Below are positions 9,303 to 25,834 of a DNA stretch of 64,000 nucleotides, piece after piece. A program made the position numbers and the translations under genes. Where the stretch lies: the NCBI RefSeq assembly GCF_003202035.1, contig NZ_QJKC01000004.1:124001-188000 (forward strand). The letters run 5' to 3'. How positions within the stretch are numbered: position 1 is the stretch's first letter; the number at the start of each line of letters is the position of its first letter. Source of the stretch: Aquitalea magnusonii (GTDB taxonomy: Bacteria; Pseudomonadota; Gammaproteobacteria; Burkholderiales; Chromobacteriaceae). The notes beneath the pieces were generated by a model that saw nothing but the letters and a program-made list of their open reading frames with translations, was not told the origin of the DNA and did no database searches.

Positions 9303-11081
9303 TCAGACAATGGCACGAGCCAACTCCCGGTTGTGCCGGGTTTCCTCATCAGGCAGGAAAGGGAACATATCGTCCAGCGGCTTGGACTCCAGCTTGCCCT
9401 CCGCATTACGGAAAGTGGATGCTTTGGGAGAAATCCACTGCTCCGAAGACAGCATCACCTCGCATACCTCGGGCTGATCGGAAGCCAGTACTTTCCCCAA
9501 CACCTCGTCCAGCGAAGAGTGCTCAGCCACCTTGGAGTAGCCCAAACGATAAGCAGCGGCCAGCGCCTCGAAATCGGGATTGAAAACATTGGACTGCGGA
9601 TTAGCGCCCACATAGCGAGAATTAAACAAGTTGTCCTGTGTCGCCTTGATTGAGCCGTAACCGTCATTATTGAAGATGAACACCTTAATCGGCAGCTTGT
9701 TAGCACCGATAGTGAGCAACTCCTGACTATTCAGCATTACACCGCCGTCACCAGCAATGCACAACACCCGCTGCCCCGTGCCATAGTGCGCGCCAACGGC
9801 TGTCGGCAAATCCCAGCCCATCGATCCCCAATTACCGTTCAGTGCGGCGCGTTGACCGGCCTTGATCTTGTAACCTTGATAGAAGCTGACGCAATCAAGA
9901 CCATTGCCAGTGACGATGATATCGTTCTGAGCCGACAAACGGGACAGGGCTTCCATGAATACGTAAGAGTTGATAAAGCCGCAATCTGCTCGCTGTGCGT
10001 CCGTCACCAGAGGATACTTGTCCTCCCAATAACGACACAGTTCCAGCCATTTCGCGTTATGGGCCTCATAGCCAGCCAGCTTTTCTTGCAGTGCTGGCAC
10101 GAAGCCGCGCAAATCCGCCAGTAATGGCATATCCGCTTTCAAGGGATGGGCTTGTAGCTGGCCCGGATCAATATCAACAAAAATTTTCTTGGCACCCACT
10201 GCAAACTTGGAAGTTTCAAAGCCAGTCTTTGCCACGCAGAAACCCACCCCCAACCCCAAAATCAGGTCCGCGTTCTGCATGATCAGGTTGGCATGCCGTT
10301 GCCCGGCCGTGCCAAAAGTGCCAAAGGCGCAGGTGTTGTCCGATTCCAGCAAATCCTTGCCGGTGTAGGGCGTCAGCACTGGAATCTGCAGTCGCTCAAC
10401 GAGCCCTCTCACTGCCTCGTACATACCAGAGAGGCGCACGCCGTTGCCCAGGATCAACACGGGTCTTGCCGCACTTTCCAATGACTTCACCACCTCATCC
10501 AGCTGCGTCCGCCAAGCGTCATCGCCCGGAGCCTCAGGTTGCCAATGGGGTAGCGTATCCAGATCAACCTCGGCGGACTGCATGTCCAGCGGCAGCTCGA
10601 TCCACACCGGACCGGGGCGGCCATTCTTGGCGATGTGGTAGGCCTTTTCCAGTTCGTACTGGATCATGGACGGATCACGCAGGGAAACGGCATATTTCGT
10701 CACTGGCTTCACCATTTCCAGTACGTTGCCTTCTTGCGGTCCCACTTGCCTTACCTTGTCATAGTCCGCCACCAGATTGGAACGTACCTGGCCAGATACC
10801 ACCAGCATCGGTACGGAGTCATACCAGGCGCCCACGACCCCGGACAAGGCATTGACCGCGCCGGGCCCGAAAGTAGCGAAACAAACACCGAAGCCGGACA
10901 TGCGGGCATAACCATCGGCGGCAATGGCACAAGCTTGTTCGTGATAGTTGCACACGTAATCCACTTTTTCGCTTTTCCCCAGCGCATCCAGCAGATACAT
11001 GATGCCCCCGCCCGACAGCAGGAATACATGTCGGGTACCGATTTTCTCCAGAAAGCGGATCACTACATCAGATACATTCAT
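9303..11081 (-). CDS. Thiamine-diphosphate-dependent enzyme, acetolactate-synthase family
   Basis: Three-domain TPP enzyme of 592 residues. The catalytic glutamate lies in NYHEQ (Glu48), and the Mg/TPP motif runs from GDGG at 444-447 to NN at 471-472. The family transfers a two-carbon unit from pyruvate to a keto acceptor, or does related carboligations. It is the last gene of a 16-gene glycan operon, so a sugar role is more likely than branched-chain amino-acid synthesis; no ilvN small subunit or ilvC is nearby. YerE, which adds the acetyl branch to CDP-3,6-dideoxy-4-ketoglucose in yersiniose synthesis, is a known family precedent and rfbFGH lie in the same operon. The actual substrate is not shown. 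Confidence 0.8.
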   Translation of the reverse strand: MNVSDVVIRFLEKIGTRHVFLLSGGGIMYLLDALGKSEKVDYVCNYHEQACAIAADGYARMSGFGVCFATFGPGAVNALSGVVGAWYDSVPMLVVSGQVRSNLVADYDKVRQVGPQEGNVLEMVKPVTKYAVSLRDPSMIQYELEKAYHIAKNGRPGPVWIELPLDMQSAEVDLDTLPHWQPEAPGDDAWRTQLDEVVKSLESAARPVLILGNGVRLSGMYEAVRGLVERLQIPVLTPYTGKDLLESDNTCAFGTFGTAGQRHANLIMQNADLILGLGVGFCVAKTGFETSKFAVGAKKIFVDIDPGQLQAHPLKADMPLLADLRGFVPALQEKLAGYEAHNAKWLELCRYWEDKYPLVTDAQRADCGFINSYVFMEALSRLSAQNDIIVTGNGLDCVSFYQGYKIKAGQRAALNGNWGSMGWDLPTAVGAHYGTGQRVLCIAGDGGVMLNSQELLTIGANKLPIKVFIFNNDGYGSIKATQDNLFNSRYVGANPQSNVFNPDFEALAAAYRLGYSKVAEHSSLDEVLGKVLASDQPEVCEVMLSSEQWISPKASTFRNAEGKLESKPLDDMFPFLPDEETRHNRELARAIV

Positions 11082-11117: not shown

Positions 11118-11732
11118 TCAGGCGCGCAGTAAGCAACCGCCATCCGCGACATCGGCGTCCACTACCGCATTCGCGGCGATGAGCACATTGCTGCCGACAC
11201 GGACCCCCGGCAACAGCACGGCGCCGGCCCCGATAAACGTGCGCTCACCCACCTGCACGCCGCCGCACATCGTGACAGATGGCGCGATGAAACAGTGTTG
11301 GCCGATAACGCAATCATGATCGATTCTGGCCCCGGTATTGACGACCACGCCGGCGCCGATCACCGCCGAGGCCTGCACGACAGCCCCCGCCATGATTTGC
11401 GATCCTTCATGCGCCTGCGCATGAACCGAAACGATGGCGCTGGCATGCCGCACATTGATAAAGCGGTATCCCTTGTCGCGCCAGATTGCGAACAGTTTGG
11501 CGTTGACTCGGCTCTTGGGTGTGGCGCCAACGCCGTTTGCCAACCAGACGGAGTCCGGCGCAAAGGATTGCAATACATCGTCGCCGCCAATCACCTCAAT
11601 GCCCAGCACTTTGTCGCCGGGTTGCGCGACGGGATCGACAACGCCGGACGGCGTCAGGCCCTGACTTTGCAAAGCGTCGATAATTACCTTTGCGTGACCG
11701 CCCGCGCCCAGTACATAAATGGGTTTACTCAT
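11118..11732 (-). CDS. NeuD/PglD-type sugar O/N-acetyltransferase
   Basis: Predicted cytosolic acetyl-CoA-dependent acyltransferase of 204 residues. The N-terminal Rossmann-like part begins MSKPIYVLGAGGHAK; the C-terminal half is a left-handed beta helix of hexapeptide repeats with the conserved catalytic histidine in IDHDC (His139). PglD-like members N-acetylate the 4-amino group of UDP-amino sugars; NeuD members O-acetylate sialic acid. Next to a LegC-type aminotransferase, N-acetylation of the new amino group is the best guess. The ATG at 11732 is chosen; an earlier start would run into neuC. Confidence 0.82.
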   Translation of the reverse strand: MSKPIYVLGAGGHAKVIIDALQSQGLTPSGVVDPVAQPGDKVLGIEVIGGDDVLQSFAPDSVWLANGVGATPKSRVNAKLFAIWRDKGYRFINVRHASAIVSVHAQAHEGSQIMAGAVVQASAVIGAGVVVNTGARIDHDCVIGQHCFIAPSVTMCGGVQVGERTFIGAGAVLLPGVRVGSNVLIAANAVVDADVADGGCLLRA

Positions 11733-11748
11733 GATTCGCTCTTCGCGC

Positions 11749-12936
11749 TCAGTTGCCTGAAGGCATGTAGTCATAGAATTTCTTGGCGAGAACGCCATCA
11801 AGCCCAACCGTCTTCAGTTTTTGCGCAATCCTGACGGCGGCGTCGCCCTTGCCGTAGAGCGAAACATCCTGCGGCAGTCCCGCCATAAACGACTCGGACA
11901 GGGCAAGATCAATGGCGCGTCGGATATCGCCGGCATTCTCGAGACAATCGATAACGGACAAGGCTTTCAATCGGCCCCTTTGACGGTCGCCGATATTGAC
12001 CGTTGGCACCCGTACGGCCGGCGCTTCAATCAGCCCGCTGGAGGAGTTGCCGATCACCACGTCGGCACACTGCATCAGACTGAGATATCGCCGCTGCCCC
12101 AGCGAGTTGAAAAAGCGCACCCGCTGCGGGTAACGCGCCGCATAGGCCTGAATCCGGGAGCTTATGGCCGCATTGCCGGCATCAGCATTGACTCCGGTGA
12201 AAATCACCGCAGCGTCCGGATAAGCTTCGAGCGCCGACATTAGTTCGTCAGCTGCAGCGCCCGGCTCCATATCGCCCAGCGTGGCGGGATGGTACGTGAC
12301 GAGAAATACCGGCTTCTCCGCCAGGGCCACGCCAAGATCCTGCTCCAGCTCGGCAAGAGACATCATCGGCGTCCGCTGCAAGTGGTCCAGTCCCGGCGCG
12401 CCGTAATTGAATACCATCGCCGGATTTTCACCCATCTGCAGAATGCGCTGCCGGTAGGCCTCTGCGGCGGCAAAGTGCACATGCGACATTTTGGTAACCG
12501 CGTGGCGAATGGACTCGTCCATCGCACCCTCACTGGTTTCACCGCCATGAATGTGCGCTACAGGTACACGCATGAACAAAGCGGCCTGCGCGGCTGCCAG
12601 CTCCTCATAACGGTCCCCCAACAGCACGACCAGATCCGGAGACAAGCGCTCATAGGCTTCGGCAAACCCCATCGTGGCCAAAGCGGTGGACTTGCTGACG
12701 CCAACGCCCGAATCACCCGCCATCTGCATTTCGATGCGTGCATCGACAGGGAAACCATCCCGCACAACCACCTGCTCTGTCCGGCCCCACTGCTCGCACA
12801 GGTGCGCCCCGGTAACAATCACCTGCAACTGTAATGCGGCATCTGCCTGTACCGCCTTCATTACCCAGTACAAATGGCCGTAATCGGCGCGGGTGGCCGT
12901 GACAAAGCAAATCCTGCGAGGGGCTTGATCGCTCAC
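11749..12936 (-). CDS. neuC: Hydrolysing UDP-N-acetylglucosamine-type 2-epimerase (NeuC/LegG family)
   Basis: Removes UDP and inverts C2 of a UDP-HexNAc-type sugar, giving the free aldose that a NeuB-type enzyme condenses with PEP. The 395 residues include TATRADYGHL near the start, VLLGDRYEE, HIHGGETSEGAMDE and the UDP-binding DVVIGNSSSGLIEAP. It starts with GTG at 12936, overlapping the stop of the aminotransferase gene by GTGA. In this context the substrate may be a 2,4-diacetamido sugar, as for LegG, rather than UDP-GlcNAc. Confidence 0.9.
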   Translation of the reverse strand: MSDQAPRRICFVTATRADYGHLYWVMKAVQADAALQLQVIVTGAHLCEQWGRTEQVVVRDGFPVDARIEMQMAGDSGVGVSKSTALATMGFAEAYERLSPDLVVLLGDRYEELAAAQAALFMRVPVAHIHGGETSEGAMDESIRHAVTKMSHVHFAAAEAYRQRILQMGENPAMVFNYGAPGLDHLQRTPMMSLAELEQDLGVALAEKPVFLVTYHPATLGDMEPGAAADELMSALEAYPDAAVIFTGVNADAGNAAISSRIQAYAARYPQRVRFFNSLGQRRYLSLMQCADVVIGNSSSGLIEAPAVRVPTVNIGDRQRGRLKALSVIDCLENAGDIRRAIDLALSESFMAGLPQDVSLYGKGDAAVRIAQKLKTVGLDGVLAKKFYDYMPSGN

Positions 12937-14075
12937 AACCCCACCTCCGCCATCACGATGGCGGCCACTTGCTCCAGTTCAGCATCACTGATGCCAGTGG
13001 AGCACGGCAAGGTTACGATCCGCTGCCAGATGCTCTCGCTGACTGACAAGTCGCCACGCGGACAAGCGGCAAAGGGAGCCTGAAAATGCAGCGGCTTCCA
13101 GAACGGACGCGCGTCGATGCCCTTCTCGCGCAAGCGGGCTCGCAGCGCTGCCGAATCGCCCTCCTTAAGCACAAATCCGGCGAACCAGCAGGCGCTTTCG
13201 GCGAAGTCCGGCATGGGAAATGGCAAAACGCCTGGCAGCGCGGCAAAACGCTTGTCGTAAAAAGCGCTGATCTCGCGCTTGCGTGCAACAAAGCGAGGCA
13301 ACAACTCCATTTGGGCGCAACCGACGGCAGCCTGGATGTTAGTCATCCGGTAGTTGAAGCCGACCATGTCGTGATCGTAATCAGCACCGACGCGGGCAGT
13401 CGTAGTCAGATGACGCACTCGCTTGACAAGAGCCTCGTCATTGCCGGAGACTGCGCCGCCGCCGCCAGCAGTGACGGTCTTGTTGCCATTGAATGAGAAC
13501 ATGGTGAGATCTGCGCCCAGCTCGCCAAGGCTGCGGCCCTTGTAGCGCGCGCCCAACGCAGCCGCCCCATCGGCAACTACCGGCAAGCGGAACTCACGCG
13601 CGAGGGCAACGATGGGATCCATATCGGCCGGCATGCCCAGCGTGTATACCGGCACAATCGCCGCGACACGCTTGCCCGTTGCCTTATGAAGCAGTGCTCC
13701 GTGCTCATTGCGCGCGGTTTCTTCGCGCAAGGCTTTCTCCAGCTGGCGCGGATCCAGCGTCCAGCTTTCGCTATCAATATCCAGCATCCACGGCAGAGCG
13801 TGCGCGTGAGCAACCGCGTTTGCCGTGGCGATAAAACTGAGCCCTGGGATGATCACGAGGTCACCTGGCTCGACGCCCACCGCGATCAACGCGGCATGAA
13901 GCCCTGTGGTGCCGGCGGAAGTGGCAACGGTATATGCGTAGCCCGCAGCCTCTCCCACCATCTGTTCAAACCGGTTGACGAAGGGCCCCACTGTCGAAAC
14001 AAACGTGGAGTCGATGCACTCGTTGAGATAGGCCCGCTCGTTGCCGGCCAGGTTCGGAATGGCCAAGGGGATCAT
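12933..14075 (-). CDS. LegC-family PLP aminotransferase
   Basis: DegT/DnrJ/EryC1/StrS-type enzyme predicted to convert a 4-keto nucleotide sugar to the 4-amino sugar using glutamate. The 380 residues start MIPLAIPNLAGNE, have the PLP-phosphate contact ATSAGTTGLH, VVADGAAALGA, and the Schiff-base lysine in SFNGNKTVTAGGGG (Lys199). LegC members act in legionaminic acid synthesis. It overlaps both neighbours by four bases: the ATG at 14075 lies in the stop of the SDR gene, and its stop lies in the GTG of neuC. Confidence 0.88.
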   Translation of the reverse strand: MIPLAIPNLAGNERAYLNECIDSTFVSTVGPFVNRFEQMVGEAAGYAYTVATSAGTTGLHAALIAVGVEPGDLVIIPGLSFIATANAVAHAHALPWMLDIDSESWTLDPRQLEKALREETARNEHGALLHKATGKRVAAIVPVYTLGMPADMDPIVALAREFRLPVVADGAAALGARYKGRSLGELGADLTMFSFNGNKTVTAGGGGAVSGNDEALVKRVRHLTTTARVGADYDHDMVGFNYRMTNIQAAVGCAQMELLPRFVARKREISAFYDKRFAALPGVLPFPMPDFAESACWFAGFVLKEGDSAALRARLREKGIDARPFWKPLHFQAPFAACPRGDLSVSESIWQRIVTLPCSTGISDAELEQVAAIVMAEVGL

Positions 14076-15058
14076 TTTGCGCTCACCCCGCCCTGGAAGA
14101 CATTGGCAAGATACCAGTCAAAGGTCTGGCGCACGCCTTCTTGCAAGGACACCTCCCCGCTGACGCCGGTCAGGTCTTGCAACAGACCGGTCTTGGGGCA
14201 GCGGCGCGACGGGGAGCCCGGTGTCGCAGGTTGCGGCACAAGATTGAGCTTGCGATCTACAGTGGTTACCACTACTTCGGCCAACTCGCCGATGGAAATT
14301 TCCGGCGATTCATTACCGATGTTGACAGTCTTTCCCAGAGCGCTTTCGGATTCGGTCAGCGCACGAATCATGCGCACCGCATCGCTGACGTAGCAGAAGG
14401 TACGACGATGGTCCACGCTGAATACATCCAGCGTATCGCCATCTTTCGCCTTCCACGCCTTGAACAACAACTCCGGAATCACATGGGACATTCCCATGCG
14501 CGGGCCATAGACATTATGCAAGCGGACATTGGTAACCGGCAGGCCGCTCATATTGCACATGGCTTCGCCGTACAGTTTGGAGAGCATGTAGCTAGTGCGA
14601 GGCTGGTCCAGTCCGGTCAGGGCAATCGGGGTGGTCTCAGGGGTCGGAATCGGCATGTCCATATGGATCAGACTGCCAGCGTAGACTTCAGAAGTGGAGC
14701 TGAACAGCAAACGCTGCAGCTTCTCTTGGCGGCGACACAGACGGATAACGTTGTCAGTCATCTTGGTATTGTCGGCCAGTACTTCGTAAGGTCGCTGCAA
14801 TACATGGGTCACGCCGATAATGGCCGCCAGATGGTACACATGCGTGAAGTCGGTCGGCAAATCCTGCAGGGTGGATTCATCCAGCAAATCCGCTTTCAGC
14901 ACCTTTACGCCCAACTCATTGATGCAAGACTCGATGAACGGGTCCTGCACACCCCGCTTGAAGTTGTCCAGCAAGGTTACATCATGCCCCTCGGAAGCCA
15001 GGGAACGGGCCAGATGGCCGCCAACAAAACCTACACCGCCAGTAATGAGTACTTTCAC
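14072..15058 (-). CDS. Extended SDR resembling UDP-hexuronate decarboxylases (ArnA/UXS-like)
   Basis: NAD-dependent sugar-nucleotide enzyme of 328 residues with GGVGFVGG at 7-14 and the catalytic YMLSK at 157-161. The central motif reads STSEVYA (121-127), the Ser/Thr-Ser-Glu form typical of UDP-xylose synthase and the ArnA decarboxylase, rather than the STDEVYG form of 4,6-dehydratases. RRTFCYVSD around 218-226 parallels the ArnA region with its catalytic arginine. It follows a nucleotide-sugar 6-dehydrogenase that could supply its substrate. A C4 epimerase or LegB-like dehydratase role remains possible. It starts with GTG at 15058 behind AGGAG. Confidence 0.72.
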   Translation of the reverse strand: MKVLITGGVGFVGGHLARSLASEGHDVTLLDNFKRGVQDPFIESCINELGVKVLKADLLDESTLQDLPTDFTHVYHLAAIIGVTHVLQRPYEVLADNTKMTDNVIRLCRRQEKLQRLLFSSTSEVYAGSLIHMDMPIPTPETTPIALTGLDQPRTSYMLSKLYGEAMCNMSGLPVTNVRLHNVYGPRMGMSHVIPELLFKAWKAKDGDTLDVFSVDHRRTFCYVSDAVRMIRALTESESALGKTVNIGNESPEISIGELAEVVVTTVDRKLNLVPQPATPGSPSRRCPKTGLLQDLTGVSGEVSLQEGVRQTFDWYLANVFQGGVSAK

Positions 15059-15101
15059 GTCAGCTCCTGAATAATTTCAAAATTTGATAAGGCAATCCGG
15101 C

Positions 15102-16490
15102 TCAAGAGCCGCGACCGACAGATTCGACCCGGCAACCCGCTTGCACAAAGGCTTCGCGCTGAGCGGCGCTGAGGCAATCATTGCTGTCCAGAATATAAGG
15201 CGTGCGCCCGTCCAGCCATGCAACCGGATCCAGTTTCTTGTATTCCTTGTGCGGCACGGCAAACACCACCGCATCCACATCAGGGCACGATGGCAAGGCA
15301 TCATCCACCGGAATCTGCAGGTCATCCCAATAGTTCAACAATGGATCGGCGCACATGACCACCGCGCCCTCCCCAACCGCAATCTCATAGAATGTCTGGG
15401 AGGGAGAATAACGGGTGTCCGCCACATCCTGACGATAAGACACGCCCGCCAGCAGCACTCTCGCGCCATTCAGTCCGCCAAGATGCGTCCGCAGCTTGTC
15501 TACAGGGTGAAGCGGCATGGCCTGGTTGATCCGCACGGCCATCCGCGACAAGGGGAACTCGATGCCGTCCAGACCCAATATGTCCTTCGCAGCCAGATCG
15601 GCGAACAAGGGATCTTTGGTCAGGCAGTAGCCCCCCACGCCGAAACCCGGCTGGCGGATATTGCTGTGTGTGGGCCGCTTGCGGATGGCGCCCACGACTT
15701 CGAACATGTCGACGCCGGCTTTTTCGGCAAACTTGCCCCACTCGTCCATGAAAGCGATGGTCAGTGCGCGATAGCTGTTTTCCAGAACTTTGGAAGTTTC
15801 CGAAGCCGTTGTATTGGAAAGGCGGGTAAGCGGGTACTCCGCCACGTTGACCACCGTGGACATGAAGGCTTCGCAGGCATCCGCGGCAGCCGGCGTATCG
15901 CCGGCGAATACACGCCAGTAATCCGTGATGGAGGCAAGATATTGGTCTCCAGGCATCACCCGCTCATAAGCGTGCGCCAGTAAAAACGCATCCTCCGGCA
16001 AACCTCGCTCAAGCGCGCATTGCGCCAGCGCAGGCTTGACGATGTTGCGGCAGGTGCCCGGCGGCACAGTCGTTTCCACAATCACGAGGCATCCTTGCGG
16101 AATGTTTCGGCCAAGCGTCTTGATGGCCTCAAGGAAAGGCCCGGTTTTGAGATGGCCGTCCCCGCTAAGATCGCCAATATCGAAATGCACATCCACTACA
16201 ACCACGTCTGCTGTTCGCAACGGTTCGATATCGGACGTAGCGTTCAGGTTACCGGTTGCATGCGAATCGGCGGTCAGACGTATCAGGTCATTATCCGTGG
16301 TGCCGAAGGGAAAGACACCTTCATTCAGCTTGCGTATGCGCTCCCTGCCCACCGGGCTGTCCAGATCCAGTCCCACAACCTGATATAAAGGCTTTCCCTG
16401 CTGGCGTTTGCCAGCCTGGGCGCAAGCAACAGCCATGGCCGCACCGACAAAACCAAGACCCTGAATACAAACTTGTTTCTGCATAATCAT
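15102..16490 (-). CDS. Nucleotide-sugar 6-dehydrogenase (UDP-Glc/GDP-Man dehydrogenase family)
   Basis: Predicted cytosolic NAD enzyme that oxidises C6 of a UDP-hexose or UDP-HexNAc to the uronate in two steps. The 462 residues have GLGFVG (11-16) in the N-terminal Rossmann domain and the catalytic cysteine in GVGGYCLTKDP (Cys289), then a C-terminal UDP-binding domain. The loop spelling is closer to WbpO/TviB-type HexNAc enzymes than to UDP-glucose dehydrogenase, but substrate choice is inference. ATG codons at 16490 and 16484 are both possible. It lies between neuB and the decarboxylase-like SDR. Confidence 0.85.
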   Translation of the reverse strand: MIMQKQVCIQGLGFVGAAMAVACAQAGKRQQGKPLYQVVGLDLDSPVGRERIRKLNEGVFPFGTTDNDLIRLTADSHATGNLNATSDIEPLRTADVVVVDVHFDIGDLSGDGHLKTGPFLEAIKTLGRNIPQGCLVIVETTVPPGTCRNIVKPALAQCALERGLPEDAFLLAHAYERVMPGDQYLASITDYWRVFAGDTPAAADACEAFMSTVVNVAEYPLTRLSNTTASETSKVLENSYRALTIAFMDEWGKFAEKAGVDMFEVVGAIRKRPTHSNIRQPGFGVGGYCLTKDPLFADLAAKDILGLDGIEFPLSRMAVRINQAMPLHPVDKLRTHLGGLNGARVLLAGVSYRQDVADTRYSPSQTFYEIAVGEGAVVMCADPLLNYWDDLQIPVDDALPSCPDVDAVVFAVPHKEYKKLDPVAWLDGRTPYILDSNDCLSAAQREAFVQAGCRVESVGRGS

Positions 16491-16526
16491 TCAATCCAGT
16501 CAAAATCGCATTGCGCCAACATCACA

Positions 16527-17609
16527 CTACAGATGGTCGCCAACATTCAAATCCAGCTTGGCTGTGCTGCCCACAAGATCCCACAAGTGCTCCGCACCAA
16601 GGCCATCGCCAGTCCGTGCGGTAGCCAGATCGTCGCGCTCCAGTCGATGCCCCGCCTTGATTGGGCGAGCGGCAACCACCTGCTTTCTGACGGCCGCCCG
16701 CGTATCCCACTCACTATCATTGGGGGCCTTCGTTGCACTTCCCATTGCCACTTCCAGCTGGCGAATAGCACCAACCATCTGGGCCAGTTCAGCAGGTTCG
16801 AGGGATGCGGCGTGATCAGGCCCTGGCAATGTGCGATCCAGCGTGAAGTGCTTTTCAATCACCACTGCGCCAAGCGCTACTGCGGCAGTCGGGATCAGGG
16901 TGCCTTCCGTATGATCGGAATAACCAATGCGCAGTCCGAAAGCCTTGCCCAGCGTTTGCATGGAGCGAAGGTTCACTTCATGCATCGGAGTCGGATACTG
17001 CGAAGTGCAATGGAGCAAGACAACTTGTTCTGCAAGCGCTGCTCTCGCTGCTTGCGAAGACCAAGTGCGCCAAACCTCACCCAAAGAGGCGGGCTCGCTT
17101 TCGTGAGTAATGGCATGGCAAATGGTTGCAAGCGCAGCCTCCACCTCGGAAAGCGTAGCCATTCCAGTAGATACCACTAACGGTTTGCCAGTATGAGCAA
17201 ATTTCCACAGCAACGGAAGGTTAGTCAGCTCCCCGGAAGGTACTTTGAAAAACGGCATATCCATTTCACAAAGGAAGTCCAAACTACCTTCGTCAAAAGC
17301 CGTGGAAAGAAACTGGATGCCGCGTTTGACACAATAGGCCTTCAGTTCATGATGGATGTCATGCGAAAGCTCCAGTTGCTTTAGCATTTCATACTGACTG
17401 CTCCCGGCACCAGTCTGCTTCGCTTGATATGCCGCTTTCGGTGCCGACCGCGAAACCAGCTTTTCTGTCTTGAATGTCTGGAACTTGACCGCATCGGCCC
17501 CGGCGGATACTGCTGCATCGACTAGGCGAAAAGCCATTTCGCGGTCGCCGTTATGATTGACGCCCGCCTCGGCGATGATGAAAACACTGTTTTGACTGCC
17601 AAATGCCAT
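16527..17609 (-). CDS. neuB: N-acetylneuraminate/legionaminate-type synthase
   Basis: Condenses PEP with a free N-acetylated aldose to give a 2-ulosonic acid, with a divalent metal. The start at 17609 gives 360 residues, supported by a GAGGTGG ribosome binding site; longer starts would reach into the acyltransferase gene. Motifs: FIIAEAGVNHNGD at the N-terminus, VKFQTFKTE, VPSGELTN, LLHCTSQYPTP, GYSDHTEG and IEKHFTLDR, then a C-terminal antifreeze-like SAF domain. An insertion of roughly 25 residues before LLHCTSQ is longer than in the shortest family members. The acceptor (ManNAc, legionaminate precursor or other) cannot be fixed from sequence. Confidence 0.93.
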   Translation of the reverse strand: MAFGSQNSVFIIAEAGVNHNGDREMAFRLVDAAVSAGADAVKFQTFKTEKLVSRSAPKAAYQAKQTGAGSSQYEMLKQLELSHDIHHELKAYCVKRGIQFLSTAFDEGSLDFLCEMDMPFFKVPSGELTNLPLLWKFAHTGKPLVVSTGMATLSEVEAALATICHAITHESEPASLGEVWRTWSSQAARAALAEQVVLLHCTSQYPTPMHEVNLRSMQTLGKAFGLRIGYSDHTEGTLIPTAAVALGAVVIEKHFTLDRTLPGPDHAASLEPAELAQMVGAIRQLEVAMGSATKAPNDSEWDTRAAVRKQVVAARPIKAGHRLERDDLATARTGDGLGAEHLWDLVGSTAKLDLNVGDHL

Positions 17610-17644: not shown

Positions 17645-18877
17645 TCATGCCCAAGACAACAACTTGCGCATGCGCTGTCTTAGGGGCTTCTCCAGCCACT
17701 CATAAGAAATCGCTGAAAAAATATAAATACCTACCCATGCCATGACCACATGCAGGAACCGCGTTCCCGGCAACATCAAGACAAAACCGTAAAAATAAAT
17801 ATGCCAAATATAAATAGAGTAACTACGTTCACCCAGCCTCACACACCAACTCGTGGAAAGAAGCCTGGAGAAATGCCCGACTGGACAAACATAGCAATAA
17901 TAAATACAAAAGCAGACAATGGGGGCATAACCAAATAGTTGGAAAATTTCATCAAACAGCGGAAAGGCATATTTCTGAGGGAGGAAAGTTTCTAAAACAT
18001 ATAAAAATGACAGCAAGCTACCAATTTTAACAAAGATCGTTTCAGAACGATTCAATACTCGATCAAATTGTTTCAAACAATAATCCGCGACGACAATACC
18101 ACATATAAACTGCAACAACCTTGAGTATGGAGAAACATACCAAACCCAAAATGAAAAAGAAAATTCAGGGCTTCGTGAAACAGAAGAAATATCACCAAAA
18201 ATACTGACTCCAATCCTATCAAAAAATGCCTCATTAGTATGCAGGCATCTAAAAGCAGAGGAAAGAACCAGTATGCTGAATATTGTTAAAATTCCGGTCA
18301 TTTTCAGAGAAAAACTACGCACTCTTACAAGCCAGTACCATAACAATGGATAAAATGCATACATAAGCATTTCAGTACTAACAGACCATGTAATACTTGC
18401 GCGCGGAAAAATATAGTAAAAAGTAGCCCCCGTGCTCGCCAACTGATAAAACCAAGACTGGGACATTGATATAAAAAAAGGAATCACTCGGAGCACATCT
18501 GGCCACGGGACACCACCACCACGAGTAACCAATACCAAATCAATAATAAAAGTTGCTAAAAACAAAGGATACAACCGAGAAAAACGTGCCACAAAAAACG
18601 CATAGAATTTTTTTAACGAACCATTGATTTTAACACTATAATTATAGTGAATAATAAATCCACTCAAAACAAAAAAAATATCCATCCCAAGAAAAGCGCA
18701 ATTTGCAAGAAATCGCCCAAAAAACATGGTATCCCTAGAGACAAAACCGAGTAAAAGATGATTAAGCAAAATAAAAAATGCCGCAAAAAAACGCAGACCA
18801 GTCAGTGATTTTATATCAGGCCGGGCAGGCGAAAAAATGACAGAATCATCAGAATGTCTCATTTCCTTAATTACCAT
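17645..18877 (-). CDS. Acyltransferase-3 family membrane protein (OafA/WecH type)
   Basis: Inner-membrane O-acyltransferase predicted to acetylate a glycan or its precursor. The 410 residues begin the family core with LTGLRFFAAFFILLNHLL, which carries the conserved RF and catalytic-site histidine, followed by about ten hydrophobic segments. The SGNH domain of longer OafA members is absent. The start at 18877 overlaps the end of the upstream gene by seven bases; a later ATG at 18862 is possible. The gene is strikingly AT-rich compared with neuB downstream, a sign of separate ancestry. Confidence 0.85.
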   Translation of the reverse strand: MVIKEMRHSDDSVIFSPARPDIKSLTGLRFFAAFFILLNHLLLGFVSRDTMFFGRFLANCAFLGMDIFFVLSGFIIHYNYSVKINGSLKKFYAFFVARFSRLYPLFLATFIIDLVLVTRGGGVPWPDVLRVIPFFISMSQSWFYQLASTGATFYYIFPRASITWSVSTEMLMYAFYPLLWYWLVRVRSFSLKMTGILTIFSILVLSSAFRCLHTNEAFFDRIGVSIFGDISSVSRSPEFSFSFWVWYVSPYSRLLQFICGIVVADYCLKQFDRVLNRSETIFVKIGSLLSFLYVLETFLPQKYAFPLFDEIFQLFGYAPIVCFCIYYCYVCPVGHFSRLLSTSWCVRLGERSYSIYIWHIYFYGFVLMLPGTRFLHVVMAWVGIYIFSAISYEWLEKPLRQRMRKLLSWA

Positions 18878-20892
18878 TTCGTAGCGCCAACCGTCCAAAA
18901 ACCATACCCAAGATGTCTTGGGTCCAAATTCTTTGTCATCGCCACTTTCGCATAATTATAATCTGGTGCATTTTCGTAAACTAACTTGTAATCCTGTCCA
19001 TTAGAATAATACAAGAAGCCAGGTTCCATCTCGAAGTTTGGAATATCCACAAATTTATCTGCCAAACCATTTCCACCAGTATCCGCATAACTAAGCGGTA
19101 TAGGTGCGACACGGCCATTTCGCATTAACGAAACACTACCCGGAGCAGCAATCCTATTCGACAAAGGATAATTACCATAAACCTTCTTATAATTTTCCAA
19201 CTTAGCTGTCAGTAAACGTAACTTTCCCAGCATGACTGGATAAATCCGTGCTTCTTCGTGAAAGTTAATTTCAAAAAACTTACCAGACTCCGACTTCCAC
19301 TTTTCGCCCAGCAGGCTGTATGCTGAAATAGCAAACACCGTCCCAAGACTGGGGTAATAATTTCCGTTGTCTATCTCAATAAAGACATGCCTAGCAGAAA
19401 AAACATATTGGCTAATATTGTAACGCTCACGATAGGAGGCATCGTGAATCAACATTAGATTATTGCCCCAATGACGGTATTCATTCACACCAACCCCAAG
19501 ACTATTTTTTCCGCCTCTGGCGTAAATGATATTACCGGTGTATTCATAATTCCATATATTTCGCTTACCTACACGATACCCCGAGGTGTGATCAACTATA
19601 ATAAAGGTCCCAACATCATGAAATTCTTTTGCATTATTTCTTATATAGCCAGATATTGCATCTTGACGCATCCAGTCCCGCCACACGTCAGCACCAATAA
19701 ACATGGATGTCATTGAAAATGACGCAAACAAGCAGGAAATGATGACATAGCCCGATTGGACACGAACGCGCTCATGCCGGACAAAAGCCAGACCAGTGCT
19801 AATACAACCAAGCAAAAAAAGCAAAACTGCAGGCAGTCCAGGTAAAATATGACGACCTTCATAATAACTTGTAAGTACGGGTGGCTTGCCTACCAGTACG
19901 TAAGGTAAAATGGCGAAGCAGCCAAAAACAATCCCCATACACGCCAATGCTATTGACTTTCCAGCATGACGAAGCAGCAGCTCTTTCCCCTGAAAAGCAA
20001 GCATTAGCAAAGAATAGCTGATGGCAAAAGCAATAACCAAGCCTTTAGTAGTACTACCAAAAAAAGCGACAGCAAGAAGATCGCGCACGGCCTTAAAAAA
20101 GGTCGGCAAAATTTTAAATGCATTCCAAATCAAATCTGAAAATTGAATCGCATTATAATCAGCATACATTTGAGAATGTTGTGTCGTTACCCATTTCAAT
20201 ACATAAAAAACAATCGGAAGCAAAACGAAAGCTGCATTTGATCTTAAGAAGATGAACAACTCAGCCCAAAAAGCAACCTGCACACCATCGGCATTCTTTC
20301 TGAGTAAAGCCCACAAGCTCTTGCAATTCGTAATCTGTAGCCTAGAGCCCAATGGATAGCGAAAGAAAAAATATGCCAGCAACAACGCATAGACAACCAG
20401 CAATGAATTAAGGTAAAAAGAGAAAAAGAAAAAAGGTAATGAAATTAACCTTAAGTACAGAGTACGATTTTTAGAAAAAATCAACGCTCCAAACCAGAAG
20501 CAAGCGATATACAAACAATAAAAAGCTACACTTGTTTGATACCGAACCAAGGCAACAGGCGTAATGGCATGCAACAGTGCCAAAACAAAAGCCATTGGAG
20601 CATTAACCCATTCTTCGCGCCGAAAAAACTTGGCCACCAATACAGAGGCGGCTCCCCAAAATACAAAAACGAACCACCGTATAGCCAGTGCAGGATTAGG
20701 CAGACTATTTATCGCATAAGTAGCATACCCACCCCACCAGATTCCGAGCTCGCGCCCAATACGAATAGCCTCCTCTTTTCCTTTAAAAATCCAGACCCAG
20801 TCATCCCAAAAATATCCTGGATTACTCAAAGAAAAGTAACAAGAGAAAAACAGTAGAAAAAAAACTAAGGGCAGCCTTTTTAAGGTTAGCAA
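18871..20892 (-). CDS. Large GT-C-like membrane glycosyltransferase candidate with pseudopilin-like C-terminal tail
   Basis: I do not recognise a named family with certainty. The 673 residues start with a hydrophobic segment followed by YFWDDW, an acidic pair in the first outer loop as in GT-C and GtrC-type transferases that use lipid-linked sugars. About ten to twelve further hydrophobic segments run to residue 415, then a soluble tail of about 250 residues. The last 110 residues (AKLENYKKVYGNYP ... YYSNGQDYKL) resemble the globular domain of GspG-type pseudopilins. It starts with TTG; an in-frame TGA lies just upstream and no ATG precedes the first helix. The gene is AT-rich. Next to GtrA/GtrB-like genes, a periplasmic sugar transferase is plausible. 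Confidence 0.6.
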   Translation of the reverse strand: MLTLKRLPLVFFLLFFSCYFSLSNPGYFWDDWVWIFKGKEEAIRIGRELGIWWGGYATYAINSLPNPALAIRWFVFVFWGAASVLVAKFFRREEWVNAPMAFVLALLHAITPVALVRYQTSVAFYCLYIACFWFGALIFSKNRTLYLRLISLPFFFFSFYLNSLLVVYALLLAYFFFRYPLGSRLQITNCKSLWALLRKNADGVQVAFWAELFIFLRSNAAFVLLPIVFYVLKWVTTQHSQMYADYNAIQFSDLIWNAFKILPTFFKAVRDLLAVAFFGSTTKGLVIAFAISYSLLMLAFQGKELLLRHAGKSIALACMGIVFGCFAILPYVLVGKPPVLTSYYEGRHILPGLPAVLLFLLGCISTGLAFVRHERVRVQSGYVIISCLFASFSMTSMFIGADVWRDWMRQDAISGYIRNNAKEFHDVGTFIIVDHTSGYRVGKRNIWNYEYTGNIIYARGGKNSLGVGVNEYRHWGNNLMLIHDASYRERYNISQYVFSARHVFIEIDNGNYYPSLGTVFAISAYSLLGEKWKSESGKFFEINFHEEARIYPVMLGKLRLLTAKLENYKKVYGNYPLSNRIAAPGSVSLMRNGRVAPIPLSYADTGGNGLADKFVDIPNFEMEPGFLYYSNGQDYKLVYENAPDYNYAKVAMTKNLDPRHLGYGFWTVGATKW

Positions 20893-20940: not shown

Positions 20941-22014
20941 TCACTCGAAAATTGTTGCCGCGATATCATAATCACTAGGGCGACCTACATCCAACCAATG
21001 CTCAAAAATTGGGAAACAGGATACTTTTTTCCCTTTTTCGATCAAACACTCAGCCACATCGGTCATATTAAATTTTTCTGATGCTGGCAAATATTGGAAA
21101 ACCTCACGCGATAGGAAATACATTCCGCTATTAACCATGAACTTGTAGACCGGCTTCTCATCAATCTTCGCAACCACACCATCCTCTTCAGCGATTACAC
21201 CGAATGGAACTTCAACATGGTACTGAGTGGAAGCAATAGTCATACAAGCATTGGTTCGCATATGATCTGCAAAAAACATTCGTACATTCAGATTGGTGAG
21301 AATATCACCATTGAAAACCAACATATGCTCATCTGGTTGATCTACCAGAGCCAATGCACCACCGGTACCTAAAGGAGTGTCTTCATTGATATATTTAATT
21401 TCGACACCATAGCGGCTACCATCGCCAAAGTGCTCCATGATCTTCTCCGGTAGATAGTGCGTAGTGATGTAAAACTTACGTACACCGAACTCGATCATTT
21501 TCATGATGCTAATTTCCAGAATTGGACGCCCATTCACTTTCAGCATCGGTTTGGGAGTGGTGTCAGTAAAAGGTCGCATGCGCGTACCGAAGCCACCCGC
21601 CATGACAATGGCTGAAAAATTCTTCTTCTGGAAATCATACTCATGGCAAAGATAATCAGCACCAATTACGTCTACCGGATCTCCAAGCTGATCTACCAGC
21701 ACTAGCTGTCGTAAGCTATGCTCGGTAAACAAGTCACGTCGTGTATCTTCCGTAGCATCTTCGTTAGCAGTAATCGGCTTTGATCTGCTACTCGCTTGCT
21801 TGATCTTGAGTACTTCCTGTGCAGAGTCGGCCAGCCCTCGCCCAGCCAAGAAGGCACGACGTACATCACCATCAGTGAATATATTCTCGAATTTTCCTTC
21901 ATTATTGTAGTAAAGACAGCACGCTACTGAGCCACTGTTCTGAATACAGCTGACGATATCGGAAATTTTGGATTCCGCATTAACAGAAATTCTGGAGAGC
22001 TCAACATTTTTCAT
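20941..22014 (-). CDS. CBS-domain nucleotidyltransferase (PtmE-like sugar-phosphate nucleotidyltransferase)
   Basis: Predicted cytosolic enzyme activating a sugar-1-phosphate. Residues 1-125 look like a CBS-domain pair; residues 133-357 are a GDP-mannose-pyrophosphorylase-like domain with IVMAGGFGTRMRPFT (signature at 140-150), PKPMLKVNGRPIL, FNGDILTN and the late EHWLDVGRP. The same architecture occurs in PtmE, which makes a GDP-amino sugar in Campylobacter legionaminic acid synthesis. It is not a CMP-sialate synthetase: the PARGGSK-type motif of those enzymes is absent. Nucleotide and sugar are unknown. Confidence 0.8.
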   Translation of the reverse strand: MKNVELSRISVNAESKISDIVSCIQNSGSVACCLYYNNEGKFENIFTDGDVRRAFLAGRGLADSAQEVLKIKQASSRSKPITANEDATEDTRRDLFTEHSLRQLVLVDQLGDPVDVIGADYLCHEYDFQKKNFSAIVMAGGFGTRMRPFTDTTPKPMLKVNGRPILEISIMKMIEFGVRKFYITTHYLPEKIMEHFGDGSRYGVEIKYINEDTPLGTGGALALVDQPDEHMLVFNGDILTNLNVRMFFADHMRTNACMTIASTQYHVEVPFGVIAEEDGVVAKIDEKPVYKFMVNSGMYFLSREVFQYLPASEKFNMTDVAECLIEKGKKVSCFPIFEHWLDVGRPSDYDIAATIFE

Positions 22015-22053: not shown

Positions 22054-23124
22054 TCATGCTTTCTGATCAAGCCATTTGCTTGTTCTAGTAATGGCATCCA
22101 CTAGACTGGTGGAGTCACAAAGCAGTCCTTCTTTGGAGGCTTTATCGATGTCAGCCAGATACTTATTTACCGGTGCACCAGAGATTACCTGCGTCATTAC
22201 TTTTACCGACTCGGTTGGCATATCGTGGCACTGAGCAACCAGCAGGGCAAGCTCCTTGATGGATAGTACTTCCTTACCGGCAATATTGTATGGCACGCCA
22301 CTGCGTGACTTCACCAACATTCGGATCAAGGATGCAGCTAAGTCAGCAGCATACAAATAGGAGCGTAGTGGAGTACCATCACCCATGATCACAATGTCCT
22401 TACCCGCACGGGCATCGCGGATGAAGTTGCCAATTGCATAGTTGGCATTCATGGGTAGATAAGGACCGACGAAAGCAAAGCATCGCGCGATGGCCAATTT
22501 GAAACCATGTTTTCTTGCCTCTGCCGCAGACATGATTTCCATCATTCGCTTGGTCTGACCGTAGACAACCTTCTCACTCGTCAACGCTGCCATGCTGTCA
22601 ACTTCTTCGACAAAGCCACTTTCACTCTGGTATTCAAGCACCGAGGTATAGACACCACCGGAGCTCGTAACAAGCAACGCTCGGACCTGTTTTTCTGCGG
22701 CCAATTTCAGAACCCGGCCCATACCAATTACGCCAGCGCATATATGTTCACTCGCCCAATCATCATACCCGCCAAGATTGGGTACAGACGCAGCATGAAT
22801 GATATGACTGACAGGCTGATCAGGAAACTTGAAATCATCGAGATCACCCTCCACCCACCGCAGCGCATCATTGCCACGAAGATGAGGATAGCGTGCAAAA
22901 AATTTGGCAGTATCACGAAGTAGCACAGTAACCGTCAGATTCATCCGCCGCTCACGTGCTATCCAAAGGAACGCTTCAACTAACCATATGCCAAAGAAAC
23001 CACTAGCGCCGGTAATAAAGACATTACCGTTTTCAAAATCATGGTGAACATCACTCGTTTTCTGAATGATTTCATTCAAATCTTGTTTAAAAAGAGAAAA
23101 ACCGGCAGGAATTGATGTATTCAT
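22054..23124 (-). CDS. Extended SDR nucleotide-sugar epimerase/reductase
   Basis: Cytosolic NAD(P)-dependent enzyme of 356 residues. After an N-terminal extension of about 33 residues it shows the Rossmann motif GASGFFG (39-45), the catalytic TSSGGVY region (153-159) and YGQTK (188-192). It lacks the Asp-Glu pair of dehydratases, so epimerisation or keto reduction is more likely. As it shares an operon with rfbF, rfbG and rfbH it could be the final C4 reductase of a CDP-3,6-dideoxyhexose, analogous to abequose or paratose synthase, or a YerF-like reductase. That is inference. Confidence 0.7.
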   Translation of the reverse strand: MNTSIPAGFSLFKQDLNEIIQKTSDVHHDFENGNVFITGASGFFGIWLVEAFLWIARERRMNLTVTVLLRDTAKFFARYPHLRGNDALRWVEGDLDDFKFPDQPVSHIIHAASVPNLGGYDDWASEHICAGVIGMGRVLKLAAEKQVRALLVTSSGGVYTSVLEYQSESGFVEEVDSMAALTSEKVVYGQTKRMMEIMSAAEARKHGFKLAIARCFAFVGPYLPMNANYAIGNFIRDARAGKDIVIMGDGTPLRSYLYAADLAASLIRMLVKSRSGVPYNIAGKEVLSIKELALLVAQCHDMPTESVKVMTQVISGAPVNKYLADIDKASKEGLLCDSTSLVDAITRTSKWLDQKA

Positions 23125-23130
23125 AGCTAT

Positions 23131-24072
23131 TTATTCGAAATTGACGCGTTCCCGCTCGACAACCATCGGTCGTTTAACCGTATGCGTCACCAGAAGGCCA
23201 ATGTACTCACCTAACATTCCAACAAGGAAAAATAAAACACCTAGAAAGAAAAATAATGCTATTGCAAGAGGTGCAAAACCTACTTGAAAATCATCCCACG
23301 CAATAAGTTTCCGCACCAGATAATAAACCCCAAGCATGAAGCTCAAGCCACTCATGGAGCCACCAATAATGGTTGCGAGACGTAAAGGAGCTTTGGAGTG
23401 ATTTACCACCCCAAGCAAAGCACTATCAAGATAAACAAAGAAATTTCCTTTTGATAGCCCTGATCTTCTCAATGGCTTATCAAAAGGGACTTCCACGCGT
23501 GGATAGCCAATCTCGCAGATCAACCCACGAAAATATGGGTAAGGATCCTGCATATCACGTAAAATATCCATTACCTTTTTATCGTAAAGGCCAAAACCGG
23601 TAAAGTTCCTCACTTGATCGACTTCTGATATCCTAGTAATCAGCGAGTAATATAATTTCCTCAAATAAGGCGTAAGTCCTTTTTCCTGATGCGATCGGCG
23701 AACCCCAATGACTATTTTACTGCCTTTCAACCAATTATTGACAAAATCAACAATTAGCTCCGGCGGATCCTCCAGGTCTGAAGCCATGCCGATCACGGCA
23801 TCACCTTGGGCCTGAAGCAAAGCGTGATATGGTGAACGTATATGCCCAAAATTGCGGACGTTGAAAATTGCCTTTATCCGTTTATCCGCCTCACATAGCT
23901 GCTTTATTTTTAAATCAGTACCATCGACACTGTCATTATCAATCAGAATTATTTCATAGTCCAATTCTGGGAACTGACTCATAGCCAGCCCAACTCGCCT
24001 AGTCAACTCTTCAACATTGTCCACTTCGTTATAACAACCTGCAACGATGCTAACAATTTTTTTATTGCTCAT
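23131..24072 (-). CDS. GtrB/DPM1-type family-2 glycosyltransferase
   Basis: Predicted enzyme that moves a sugar from a nucleotide donor to undecaprenyl phosphate on the cytosolic face. The 313 residues have a GT-A domain (IVAGCYNEVDNV, IILIDNDSVDGT, and the metal-binding DLEDPPEL) and two C-terminal membrane segments near residues 230-290, the standard GtrB layout. Its start overlaps the stop of the GtrA-like gene by ATGA. GtrB proteins often carry glucose; here a CDP-dideoxy or other local sugar is possible. Confidence 0.88.
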   Translation of the reverse strand: MSNKKIVSIVAGCYNEVDNVEELTRRVGLAMSQFPELDYEIILIDNDSVDGTDLKIKQLCEADKRIKAIFNVRNFGHIRSPYHALLQAQGDAVIGMASDLEDPPELIVDFVNNWLKGSKIVIGVRRSHQEKGLTPYLRKLYYSLITRISEVDQVRNFTGFGLYDKKVMDILRDMQDPYPYFRGLICEIGYPRVEVPFDKPLRRSGLSKGNFFVYLDSALLGVVNHSKAPLRLATIIGGSMSGLSFMLGVYYLVRKLIAWDDFQVGFAPLAIALFFFLGVLFFLVGMLGEYIGLLVTHTVKRPMVVERERVNFE

Positions 24073-24509
24073 GATCTTACGCTCTTAAATGTAAATTTTC
24101 GGTGACCGACATACGAAAAAACGACACTAATCACCATAAGACCAGCCTGTGCAATCCAGAATGGGATTCCAATCTGACTTACCAACAGCCATAGCCCCGC
24201 GATTCCAAGAACAGTACTACCTCCATATACGACATAGCAGCGCAAATACTCTAAAAACCAGTGCGACTTACTTCTAAACACAAGAAATTTGTTTGTGAAA
24301 AATGATACTGTAATACACACAATGTTAGTAAAGATAACAATTAGTACGATGTGAAATTTTTGCTGAAATAGATAGTAGACCACCACAGTGAATACATAAG
24401 CAAAAATGGTATTACCTCCTCCAACAAGTACATAGCGGAGGAGCTCTTCGGTCGAAATACCTTTTTTCTTAGCCAGCCTATTAAGGCTGGCCACCATAGA
24501 CTTAATCAA
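24069..24509 (-). CDS. GtrA-like membrane protein
   Basis: Small inner-membrane protein of 146 residues with four hydrophobic segments and the GtrA signature [15 protein letters not shown]. GtrA proteins are thought to flip undecaprenyl-phosphate-linked sugars made by GtrB. The start is TTG at 24509 behind AGGTG, overlapping the rfbH stop; ATG 24497 is an alternative. Paired with the GtrB-like gene downstream, it forms a module for periplasmic glycan decoration. Confidence 0.85.
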
Positions 24510-25822
24510 AAATTAACACCTAAAAAGGCCTCAATTTTGGTAGCCGCCCAATCCAGCATTTCTTCGGTCAATGCTGGTTGGACTCCAATCCAGAAGGTGT
24601 TGTTCATGACGATGTCTGTATTAGTCAACTCACCCACAACACGGTAATTTCGACCTATCATATAAGGCTGACGTGTCAGATTGCCCGCAAACAGTAAACG
24701 GGTGCCTATGCGATATTGATCAAGGTACTGCAGTAATTCCACGCGAGAAACTGGTGCATTTTCACGAAGCGTGATCGGAAAGCCAAACCAGGAAGGATCA
24801 GACTTTTCAGTAGCCTCTGGCAAAATGAGGAACTCTTCACAGCTACGAAGGCGAGTCTTGAGGTAGGCGAAGTTGTCCTTGCGCTTTTGTACAAACTCAG
24901 GAGCCTTGGCCAGCTGTGCCAAACCGCAGGCCGCTTGCATGTCCGTGATCTTGAGGTTGTAACCAAGATGGCTATAAGTGTACTTGTGATCGTAGCCTTC
25001 CGGTAGGCTGCCCAGTTTCTGGCAGAAACGCTTGCCACAGGTATTGTCGCGGCCTGGTGCGCAATAGCAATCACGGCCCCAATCGCGGAAACTTTCCGCG
25101 ATTTTCTTCAGTTCTTCATTATTGGTGAATACTGCACCACCTTCGCCCATGGTGATGTGGTGGGCCGGATAGAAGCTAACAGTACCGATATCGCCGAATG
25201 TACCAACCATCTTGCCATCGTAAGTGGAGCCCAGTGCGTCGCAGCAGTCCTCCACCAGCCACAGATTGTACTTCTTGCACAGCGCGGAGATGACTTCCAA
25301 GTTGTACGGATTGCCCAAGGTGTGGGCTAGCATGATGGCTTTGGTTTTCGAACTGATGGCAGCTTCTATCTTGCTGGCATCAATGTTGTAAGTACCGAGC
25401 TCCACATCGACAAATACAGGAATTGCGCCGAACTGGATGATCGGGTTTACGGTAGTGGGAAAGCCTGCGGCCACACCGATGACTTCGTCACCTGGGCGGA
25501 TAGCTCTTTCGCCCAGCTTGGGTGATGTGAGCGTACTAAAAGCAACAAGGTTGGCCGAAGAGCCAGAGTTAACGGTAATAAGATATTTGACACCGTAAAA
25601 CTCAGCAAGCTTACGCTCGAATTCGTCGTTGAAGCGGCCAGTCGTCAGCCAACCGTCCAGCGAGGCCTCCACCATCATTTGCAGCTCCTCAGCCCCGATA
25701 AGCTTGCCGGACGGCGGCACAACGGTCTGTCCTGGTACAAAAGGTTTTGCCGCCAGCGCTTGCTCGGCGTATTCAGCCACCAGTTGGCTGATTTTCTCAC
25801 GAAGAATTTTGGTATCCGTCAT
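24506..25822 (-). CDS. rfbH: CDP-6-deoxy-4-keto-glucose 3-dehydrase (E1, PMP and iron-sulfur dependent)
   Basis: Removes the C3 hydroxyl of CDP-4-keto-6-deoxyglucose, the committed step to CDP-3,6-dideoxyhexoses. The 438 residues keep the aminotransferase fold, but the PLP lysine is replaced by histidine in [12 protein letters not shown] (His221/222), the hallmark of E1. Cysteines 252, 254, 262 and 267 form the [2Fe-2S] site region. Length equals the known DdhC/RfbH enzymes. The known pathway needs an iron-sulfur flavin reductase (E3, DdhD), which is not encoded beside it. Confidence 0.95.
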
Positions 25823-25834
25823 TGATTCACACTC

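Follow-up and report, generated by a model that had tools for sequence, protein, structure and literature searches.

The CMP-legionaminic acid pathway comprises LegB, LegC, LegH/NeuD, LegG/NeuC, LegI/NeuB, LegF/NeuA and PtmE, and its product has nine carbons. The Kdo pathway (KdsA, KdsB) yields an eight-carbon ulosonic acid, and its synthase is KdsA, which uses a sugar phosphate as acceptor. Other relevant systems are the UDP-glucuronic acid decarboxylases ArnA, RsU4kpxs and UXS, for which a dehydrogenase supplies the uronic acid. In the case of ArnA, an aminotransferase takes the 4-keto pentose and the product goes to lipid A. Psychrobacter cryohalolentis makes 2,3,4-triacetamido-2,3,4-trideoxy-L-arabinose (PMC8040287), and its Pcryo_0617 (PDB accession number 8vr2) is titled oxidoreductase/decarboxylase; that pathway appears to end at the pentose, with no NeuC or NeuB step. 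C6 oxidation of UDP-GlcNAc followed by decarboxylation has been proposed for the incednine enzymes IdnS2/IdnS3 (PMC11284099) and probably also applies to Bacillus UXNAcS (UDP-XylNAc synthase). There, the product is reduced to XylNAc and there is no amination or ulosonic acid step.

The locus analyzed here is located in a 64,000-nucleotide stretch of Aquitalea magnusonii DNA (the window; assembly GCF_003202035.1, contig NZ_QJKC01000004.1, positions 124,001 to 188,000). It carries a legionaminic-acid-type gene set in which LegB is replaced by a sugar dehydrogenase and an SDR predicted to be a decarboxylase. The relevant features, in window coordinates, are:
16527..17609 (-), NeuB-type ulosonic acid synthase, which condenses a 2-acetamido sugar with PEP (the ORF can start upstream as far as 17699)
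15102..16490 (-), nucleotide-sugar 6-dehydrogenase
14072..15058 (-), extended SDR, predicted decarboxylase giving a 2-acetamido-4-keto-pentose nucleotide
12933..14075 (-), LegC-type PLP aminotransferase acting at C4
11749..12936 (-), NeuC/LegG-type hydrolysing 2-epimerase
11118..11732 (-), NeuD/LegH-type acetyltransferase (ORF open to 11807)
9303..11081 (-), TPP enzyme at the 3' end of the operon
20941..22014 (-), CBS domain plus sugar nucleotidyltransferase, PtmE-like in architecture, which probably supplies the nucleotide sugar

The six genes from NeuB to NeuD were identified by profile searches. NeuB matches TIGR03569 with 470 bits (cut-off 400) and contains PF03102 and SAF domains, the dehydrogenase matches TIGR03026 with 229 bits (cut-off 190), the SDR matches PF01370, LegC matches TIGR04181 with 408 bits (just under the cut-off of 420, E 4e-122), NeuC matches TIGR03568 with 444 bits (cut-off 236), and NeuD matches TIGR03570 with 190 bits (cut-off 161). 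The intergenic distances are 36, 43, -4, -4 and 16 bases, so the set looks like one operon. The TPP enzyme follows after a further 36 bases, but is not part of the core because it is missing from the cassettes of other phyla; it probably belongs to a branched 3,6-dideoxysugar branch. Promoter and terminator scans gave no more hits than shuffled sequences. The dehydrogenase catalytic cysteine is residue 289 in PGFGVGGYCLTKDP, and in a tree with long branches the enzyme groups on the WecC/ManNAc-dehydrogenase side, apart from the UDP-glucose dehydrogenases (support 90-92). LegB is absent from both the locus and the genome; the best LegB-model score in the genome is 170 bits and that of the SDR itself is 124 bits, compared with a cut-off of 475. 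The SDR also lacks the RDF and [QS]SPY motifs of LegB. The preliminary description, which noted the six-gene run without a LegB-type dehydratase, is thus confirmed. Its assignment of the SDR motif STSEVY to decarboxylases is not, however, diagnostic. Both STSEVY and RRTFCY are present in the SDR, but STSEVY occurs in 15/15 LegB sequences.

Other evidence does support the decarboxylase reading. ArnA R619, reported as strictly conserved in this decarboxylase subclass (PMC10338323), aligns with R286 of the SDR. The residue is Arg in 43/43 family members and in 7/7 decarboxylases (ArnA, four 4-keto-pentose synthases, UXS1 and Pcryo_0617), and in 0/22 dehydratase, epimerase or fucose-synthase references. 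It is Leu in LegB (9/9), Tyr in GalE and the three RmlB-type enzymes, Leu in Gmd, Lys in Fcl and Ser in TviC-like enzymes (7/7). Mutants of EvdS6 show that the R619 equivalent is not essential for decarboxylation; hence it is a marker of the subclass rather than proof of activity. The proline of the R619-x-Pro motif is P288 (42/43), the catalytic residues T122, E124, Y157 and K161 are kept, an Arg precedes the Tyr, and there is no Pro at 156 and no Asp at 220. A search of the family profile against solved structures ranked Pcryo_0617 first (208 bits), followed by UXS (202-203 bits), a GlcA 4-epimerase (178 bits) and a 4,6-dehydratase (155 bits), whereas the LegB profile ranked epimerases and RmlB-type enzymes first. 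The AlphaFold model (pLDDT 94.8) gave human UDP-xylose synthase and Pcryo_0617 as top Foldseek hits, unlike the LegB control. Structure alignment by VIA did not discriminate, as all the extended SDRs listed score Z 35-39. Sequence identity is about 27% to Pcryo_0617 and about 25-30% to ArnA/RsU4kpxs/UXS. In an unrooted tree with long branches the SDR family forms one clade (99) apart from LegB.

These results bear on the possibility that the SDR retains the carboxylate and performs only C4 oxidation or C4 epimerisation, giving a uronic acid branch or a nine-carbon diacid. The 4-epimerase is the third-best kind of match to the family profile, and a dehydrogenase with a 4-epimerase is probably the arrangement of the Vi-type pair. 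Nonetheless, TviC-like epimerases lack the Glu of the SDR (SSST instead of STSE) and have Ser at the R619 column, Pro before Tyr and RD (7/7), and a plain 4-epimerase gives LegC no ketone. This alternative is considered unlikely.

The gene set recurs in many phyla. A dehydrogenase is adjacent to the SDR in 61 of 65 family loci, and in 15 other loci from about eight phyla the pair heads an otherwise legionaminic-type cassette with NeuC and NeuB, in other phyla also with NeuA and the acetamidino-type genes. LegB and the pair never co-occur (0/17 with LegB; 0/20 LegC comparators with the pair). In one such cassette (locus L016) NeuC and NeuB are a single fused protein. A homologue of the CBS-nucleotidyltransferase (PF00483, with PF00571 at E 9e-4, below its cut-off) lies in all 17 dehydrogenase/SDR cassettes. 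The preliminary description proposed a UDP-linked precursor, but UDP is assumed and the precursor may be GDP-linked, as is probably the case for Campylobacter legionaminic acid; PDB matches of the nucleotidyltransferase include both guanylyl- and uridylyltransferases. No match was found to viral contigs and no DNA match to plasmids or E. coli.

In a tree, LegC clusters by head module (3 changes compared with 9.8 in shuffled data, 0/500), yet Salinibacter and Bacteroidetes members nest among LegB-linked LegC, so heads were swapped within cassettes. In contrast, NeuB does not separate cassettes by head (8 changes compared with 10.2, 71/500), and the window NeuB is closest to one from a LegB cassette (63-64% identity), so the NeuB sequence does not speak for an eight-carbon product. 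No single column of LegC, NeuB or NeuC separates pair-type from LegB-type cassettes at the thresholds used.

An alternative is that two branches share the operon, such that the dehydrogenase, SDR, LegC and NeuD make a nucleotide diacetamido-pentose used directly as a glycan residue whereas NeuC and NeuB make ordinary Neu5Ac from UDP-GlcNAc. NeuD-dehydrogenase-SDR-LegC sets without NeuB exist in Bacteroidetes (loci L047 and L052-L054), and the Psychrobacter triacetamido-pentose is a glycan residue. However, the window NeuC and NeuB are closer to those of LegB cassettes (most 45-56% and 47-64%, respectively) than to those of E. coli K1 (35% and 42%), the pair stands where LegB stands in many phyla, and there is no NeuA for CMP-Neu5Ac. 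We regard this alternative as improbable, and for the first two reasons a separate hexuronic acid branch is also disfavoured.

It is also doubtful that this is a legionaminic acid pathway in which LegC is fed by a FlaA1/WbpM-type 4,6-dehydratase encoded elsewhere and the pair serves another sugar. FlaA1-type dehydratases sit next to LegC in other genomes (loci L127, L132, L133 and L140), and this genome has one that could in principle feed LegC. That gene lies on another contig next to its own aminotransferase (31% to LegC), and the pair is conserved with LegC, NeuC and NeuB across phyla without it. Least likely is that the SDR behaves like UXS and releases the reduced XylNAc nucleotide, with LegC having another role and the acid being 5-acetamido-3,5-dideoxy-oct-2-ulosonic acid, still with eight carbons. 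A Halobacillus locus contains dehydrogenase-SDR-NeuC-NeuB-NeuA with no adjacent LegC or NeuD, but here LegC directly follows the SDR with overlapping codons and is present in 13 of the 15 other NeuB cassettes.

The best explanation, held with reasonable confidence, is therefore the chemistry proposed in the preliminary description, although its substrates, the release of a 4-keto product and the eight-carbon product are inferred without activity or glycan data, and whether a 4-keto product or a reduced XylNAc is released cannot be read from sequence. The dehydrogenase would oxidise C6 of a nucleotide-linked GlcNAc to the uronic acid. The SDR would oxidise C4, the β-keto acid would lose CO2 and a 2-acetamido-4-keto-pentose would be released, as ArnA does with UDP-glucuronic acid. 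LegC would then place an amino group on C4, NeuD would acetylate it, NeuC would remove the nucleotide with inversion at C2, and NeuB would condense the free 2,4-diacetamido-pentose with PEP. The predicted product, 5,7-diacetamido-3,5,7-trideoxy-oct-2-ulosonic acid (320.122 Da, one CH2 less than legionaminic acid), is a hybrid of Kdo and legionaminic acid for the surface polysaccharide. No such pathway was found in the literature searched, which lacked most subscription papers. The only PF02348 gene in the genome is KdsB, next to LpxK and Adk, and two other genomes with this locus likewise have KdsB and no NeuA. KdsB normally activates the eight-carbon Kdo and may activate this acid too; otherwise the CMP step is unexplained.

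It is about as likely as not that 5,7-diamino-octulosonic acids form a widespread, undescribed class of surface sugars beside the sialic, legionaminic and pseudaminic acids, which arose by exchanging the LegB head for dehydrogenase plus decarboxylase more than once and is activated by KdsB in some Betaproteobacteria. If true, a sialic-like surface sugar class with eight carbons has been hidden in genomes from about eight phyla under annotations such as 'sialic acid synthase' and 'epimerase/dehydratase'. It would correct nonulosonic acid predictions that rest on NeuB alone, explain cassettes without LegB and give a direct assay based on a mass shift of one CH2. It would also show that LegC, NeuC and NeuB accept pentose analogues, and would link the Kdo and sialic acid worlds through KdsB.

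The six genes are located where the preliminary description had placed them, all on the minus strand, with intergenic gaps of 36, 43, -4, -4 and 16 bases; a TPP enzyme follows after 36 bases. Family models confirmed the assignments of NeuB, a nucleotide-sugar dehydrogenase, an SDR, LegC, NeuC and NeuD, and the dehydrogenase cysteine was correctly identified as Cys289. LegB is missing from both the locus and the genome: the SDR reaches 124 bits and the best gene elsewhere 170 bits, against a curated cut-off of 475. The genome has a single NeuB; the weak second PF03102 match lies in an open frame that appears to encode a DAHP-synthase-like aldolase. A separate WbpM/FlaA1-like dehydratase with its own aminotransferase is encoded elsewhere in the genome. 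The following additional features were noted:

Window 9303-11081 and 22054-27666, a TPP enzyme (best match among solved structures 8rph, 419 bits, against 231 for the best acetolactate synthase) together with RfbF, RfbG, RfbH and a reductase-like SDR, suggesting a branched 3,6-dideoxysugar of the yersiniose type; the Pandoraea locus L021 has the same set.
Window 18871-20892, a 673-residue protein without any Pfam match, between the acyltransferase and the CBS-nucleotidyltransferase; conserved in L189, from a same-genus genome (78%), and in Pandoraea (36%).
Contig C33 of the genome (L190:7217-11122), the separate WbpM/FlaA1-like dehydratase with its own aminotransferase.

The preliminary description took the SDR motif STSEVY as a decarboxylase mark. 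However, 15 of 15 LegB-type proteins examined have the same STSEVY, and the motif is therefore not diagnostic. A better marker is ArnA R619, which is described as strictly conserved in the decarboxylase subclass and was used to identify CalS9, AviE2 and EvdS6, although the same paper shows that its equivalent is not essential in EvdS6 (PMC10338323). We aligned 43 members of the SDR family with E. coli ArnA (R619 was verified in the sequence), four 4-keto-pentose synthases, human UXS1, Pcryo_0617, LegB, RmlB-type, Gmd, GalE, Fcl and TviC-like epimerases. The R619 column corresponds to R286 of the window SDR, and is Arg in 43/43 family members and in all seven decarboxylase sequences, whereas it is never Arg in LegB (9 Leu), RmlB/RfbB/RffG and GalE (Tyr), Gmd (Leu), Fcl (Lys) or TviC-like (7 Ser) sequences. 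Three more columns agree: Pro at 288 (42/43), the absence of Pro before the catalytic Tyr (Pro in all 22 of those dehydratase, epimerase and fucose-synthase references), and Ala/Thr/Ser/Val instead of Asp after R219. R154 is also invariant but is found in Gmd and one LegB as well.

The AlphaFold model of the SDR has a mean pLDDT of 94.8. A Foldseek search with this model ranked human UDP-xylose synthase first, followed by Pcryo_0617, an oxidoreductase/decarboxylase. A LegB model generated as a control, which is weaker (pLDDT 82.9), ranked 4-epimerases and 4,6-dehydratases first, with no UXS among its top 50 and the decarboxylase EvdS6 at rank 33. The family profile scored Pcryo_0617 with 208 bits and UXS with 202-203 bits, followed by a glucuronic acid 4-epimerase with 178 bits and a 4,6-dehydratase with 155 bits, whereas the LegB profile retrieved epimerases and RmlB-type enzymes, with no UXS among its matches at E 1e-40. 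In a phylogenetic tree the SDR family forms one clade (support 99) outside LegB; the tree is unrooted with long branches and hence does not say whether UXS is the sister.

The expected mass of the predicted acid is 320.122 Da, compared with 334.138 Da for Leg5Ac7Ac, and the expected masses of the intermediates, if these are UDP-linked rather than GDP-linked, are 621.061, 575.055, 576.087 and 618.098 Da. The individual pieces of the pathway have precedents in ArnA, UXS, apparently the Bacillus UXNAcS, the proposed IdnS2/IdnS3 route in incednine (PMC11284099) and the triacetamido-arabinose of Psychrobacter (PMC8040287). No paper with a diamino-octulosonic acid or this gene order was found, in a literature search that could not cover most subscription papers.

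One scan of 84,980 species genomes yielded 80 loci. A dehydrogenase is next to the SDR in 61 of 65 family loci, and two of the four exceptions sit at a contig start. In 15 loci besides the window and its near relative the pair sits with NeuC and NeuB, although in one of them, L009, the contig starts at the SDR, so that the dehydrogenase cannot be seen. LegC is present in 13 of these loci, NeuD or a formyltransferase in 13, a CBS-nucleotidyltransferase in 15 and NeuA in 12. The hosts are Acidobacteria, Halobacillus, Spirochaetaceae, Omnitrophota, Pandoraea, Pelagibacteraceae, Planctomycetota, Lentisphaerae, Salinibacter, several Bacteroidetes and Rokubacteria; many of the genomes are metagenome-assembled, but Halobacillus, Pandoraea and Salinibacter are isolates. 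Two further partial loci (L022, L037) show the same order. None of these 17 holds a LegB orthologue. Conversely, 20 comparator loci chosen by high LegC or LegB scores have LegB (16), a FlaA1-type dehydratase (3) or neither (1), and none has the pair. The rest of the cassette is the same in both sets, down to a formyltransferase and accessory genes that look like those for acetamidino groups. Fusion proteins in two of the pair-type cassettes tie the NeuC, NeuB and NeuA steps together inside such cassettes. Individual loci of note are as follows:

L016:12108-14354 and L032:1339-3060, NeuC-NeuB and NeuA-NeuB fusion proteins, respectively, inside pair-type cassettes.
L010:6792-13242, Halobacillus CBS-nucleotidyltransferase, NeuA, dehydrogenase, SDR, NeuC and NeuB without adjacent LegC or NeuD, possibly for a mono-amino C8 acid in a Gram-positive.
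L036:14500-15495, L055:13268-14164, L059:12182-13096 and L073:14240-15136, a formyltransferase-like gene beside or in place of NeuD, hinting at an N-formyl group as in ArnA.
L047, L052, L053 and L054, Bacteroidetes loci with NeuD, dehydrogenase, SDR and LegC but no NeuB, in which a diacetamido-pentose is probably used directly.
L024-L031, L033-L035, L038, L040-L044, L046 and L051 (mostly Actinobacteria), the same SDR family following a second, different dehydrogenase type (such as PGYVGGGCLSKDP) without NeuB, an unassigned amino-pentose branch.
L127, L132, L133 and L140, LegC next to a FlaA1/PglF-type dehydratase, a third way to feed LegC.

LegC clusters by head module, that is, LegB or the dehydrogenase/SDR pair (3 changes against 9.8 in shuffles, 0 of 500), NeuC does so weakly (11 of 500) and NeuB does not (71 of 500). 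LegC of the Salinibacter and Bacteroidetes pair-type cassettes nests among LegB-linked LegC, so the head was exchanged more than once. The window NeuB is closest (63-64%) to NeuB of a LegB cassette in another genome of the same order, while Pandoraea, whose other operon genes match at 57-80%, has a different NeuB (48%). NeuB thus looks interchangeable and does not by itself speak for a C8 product. Both NeuB and NeuC of the window are nearer to LegB-cassette copies than to those of E. coli K1, which argues against the alternative of an ordinary sialic acid branch.

The window genome, the same-genus genome with the operon at 96-99% identity (L189) and Pandoraea anhela each have a single strong CTP_transf_3 gene. 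This gene is KdsB, next to LpxK and Adk, in the window genome and Pandoraea, and is taken as KdsB in the third by its score; the third genome also has one marginal match of 22 bits. KdsB normally activates Kdo, an eight-carbon acid, so a C8 product fits, but this evidence is indirect.
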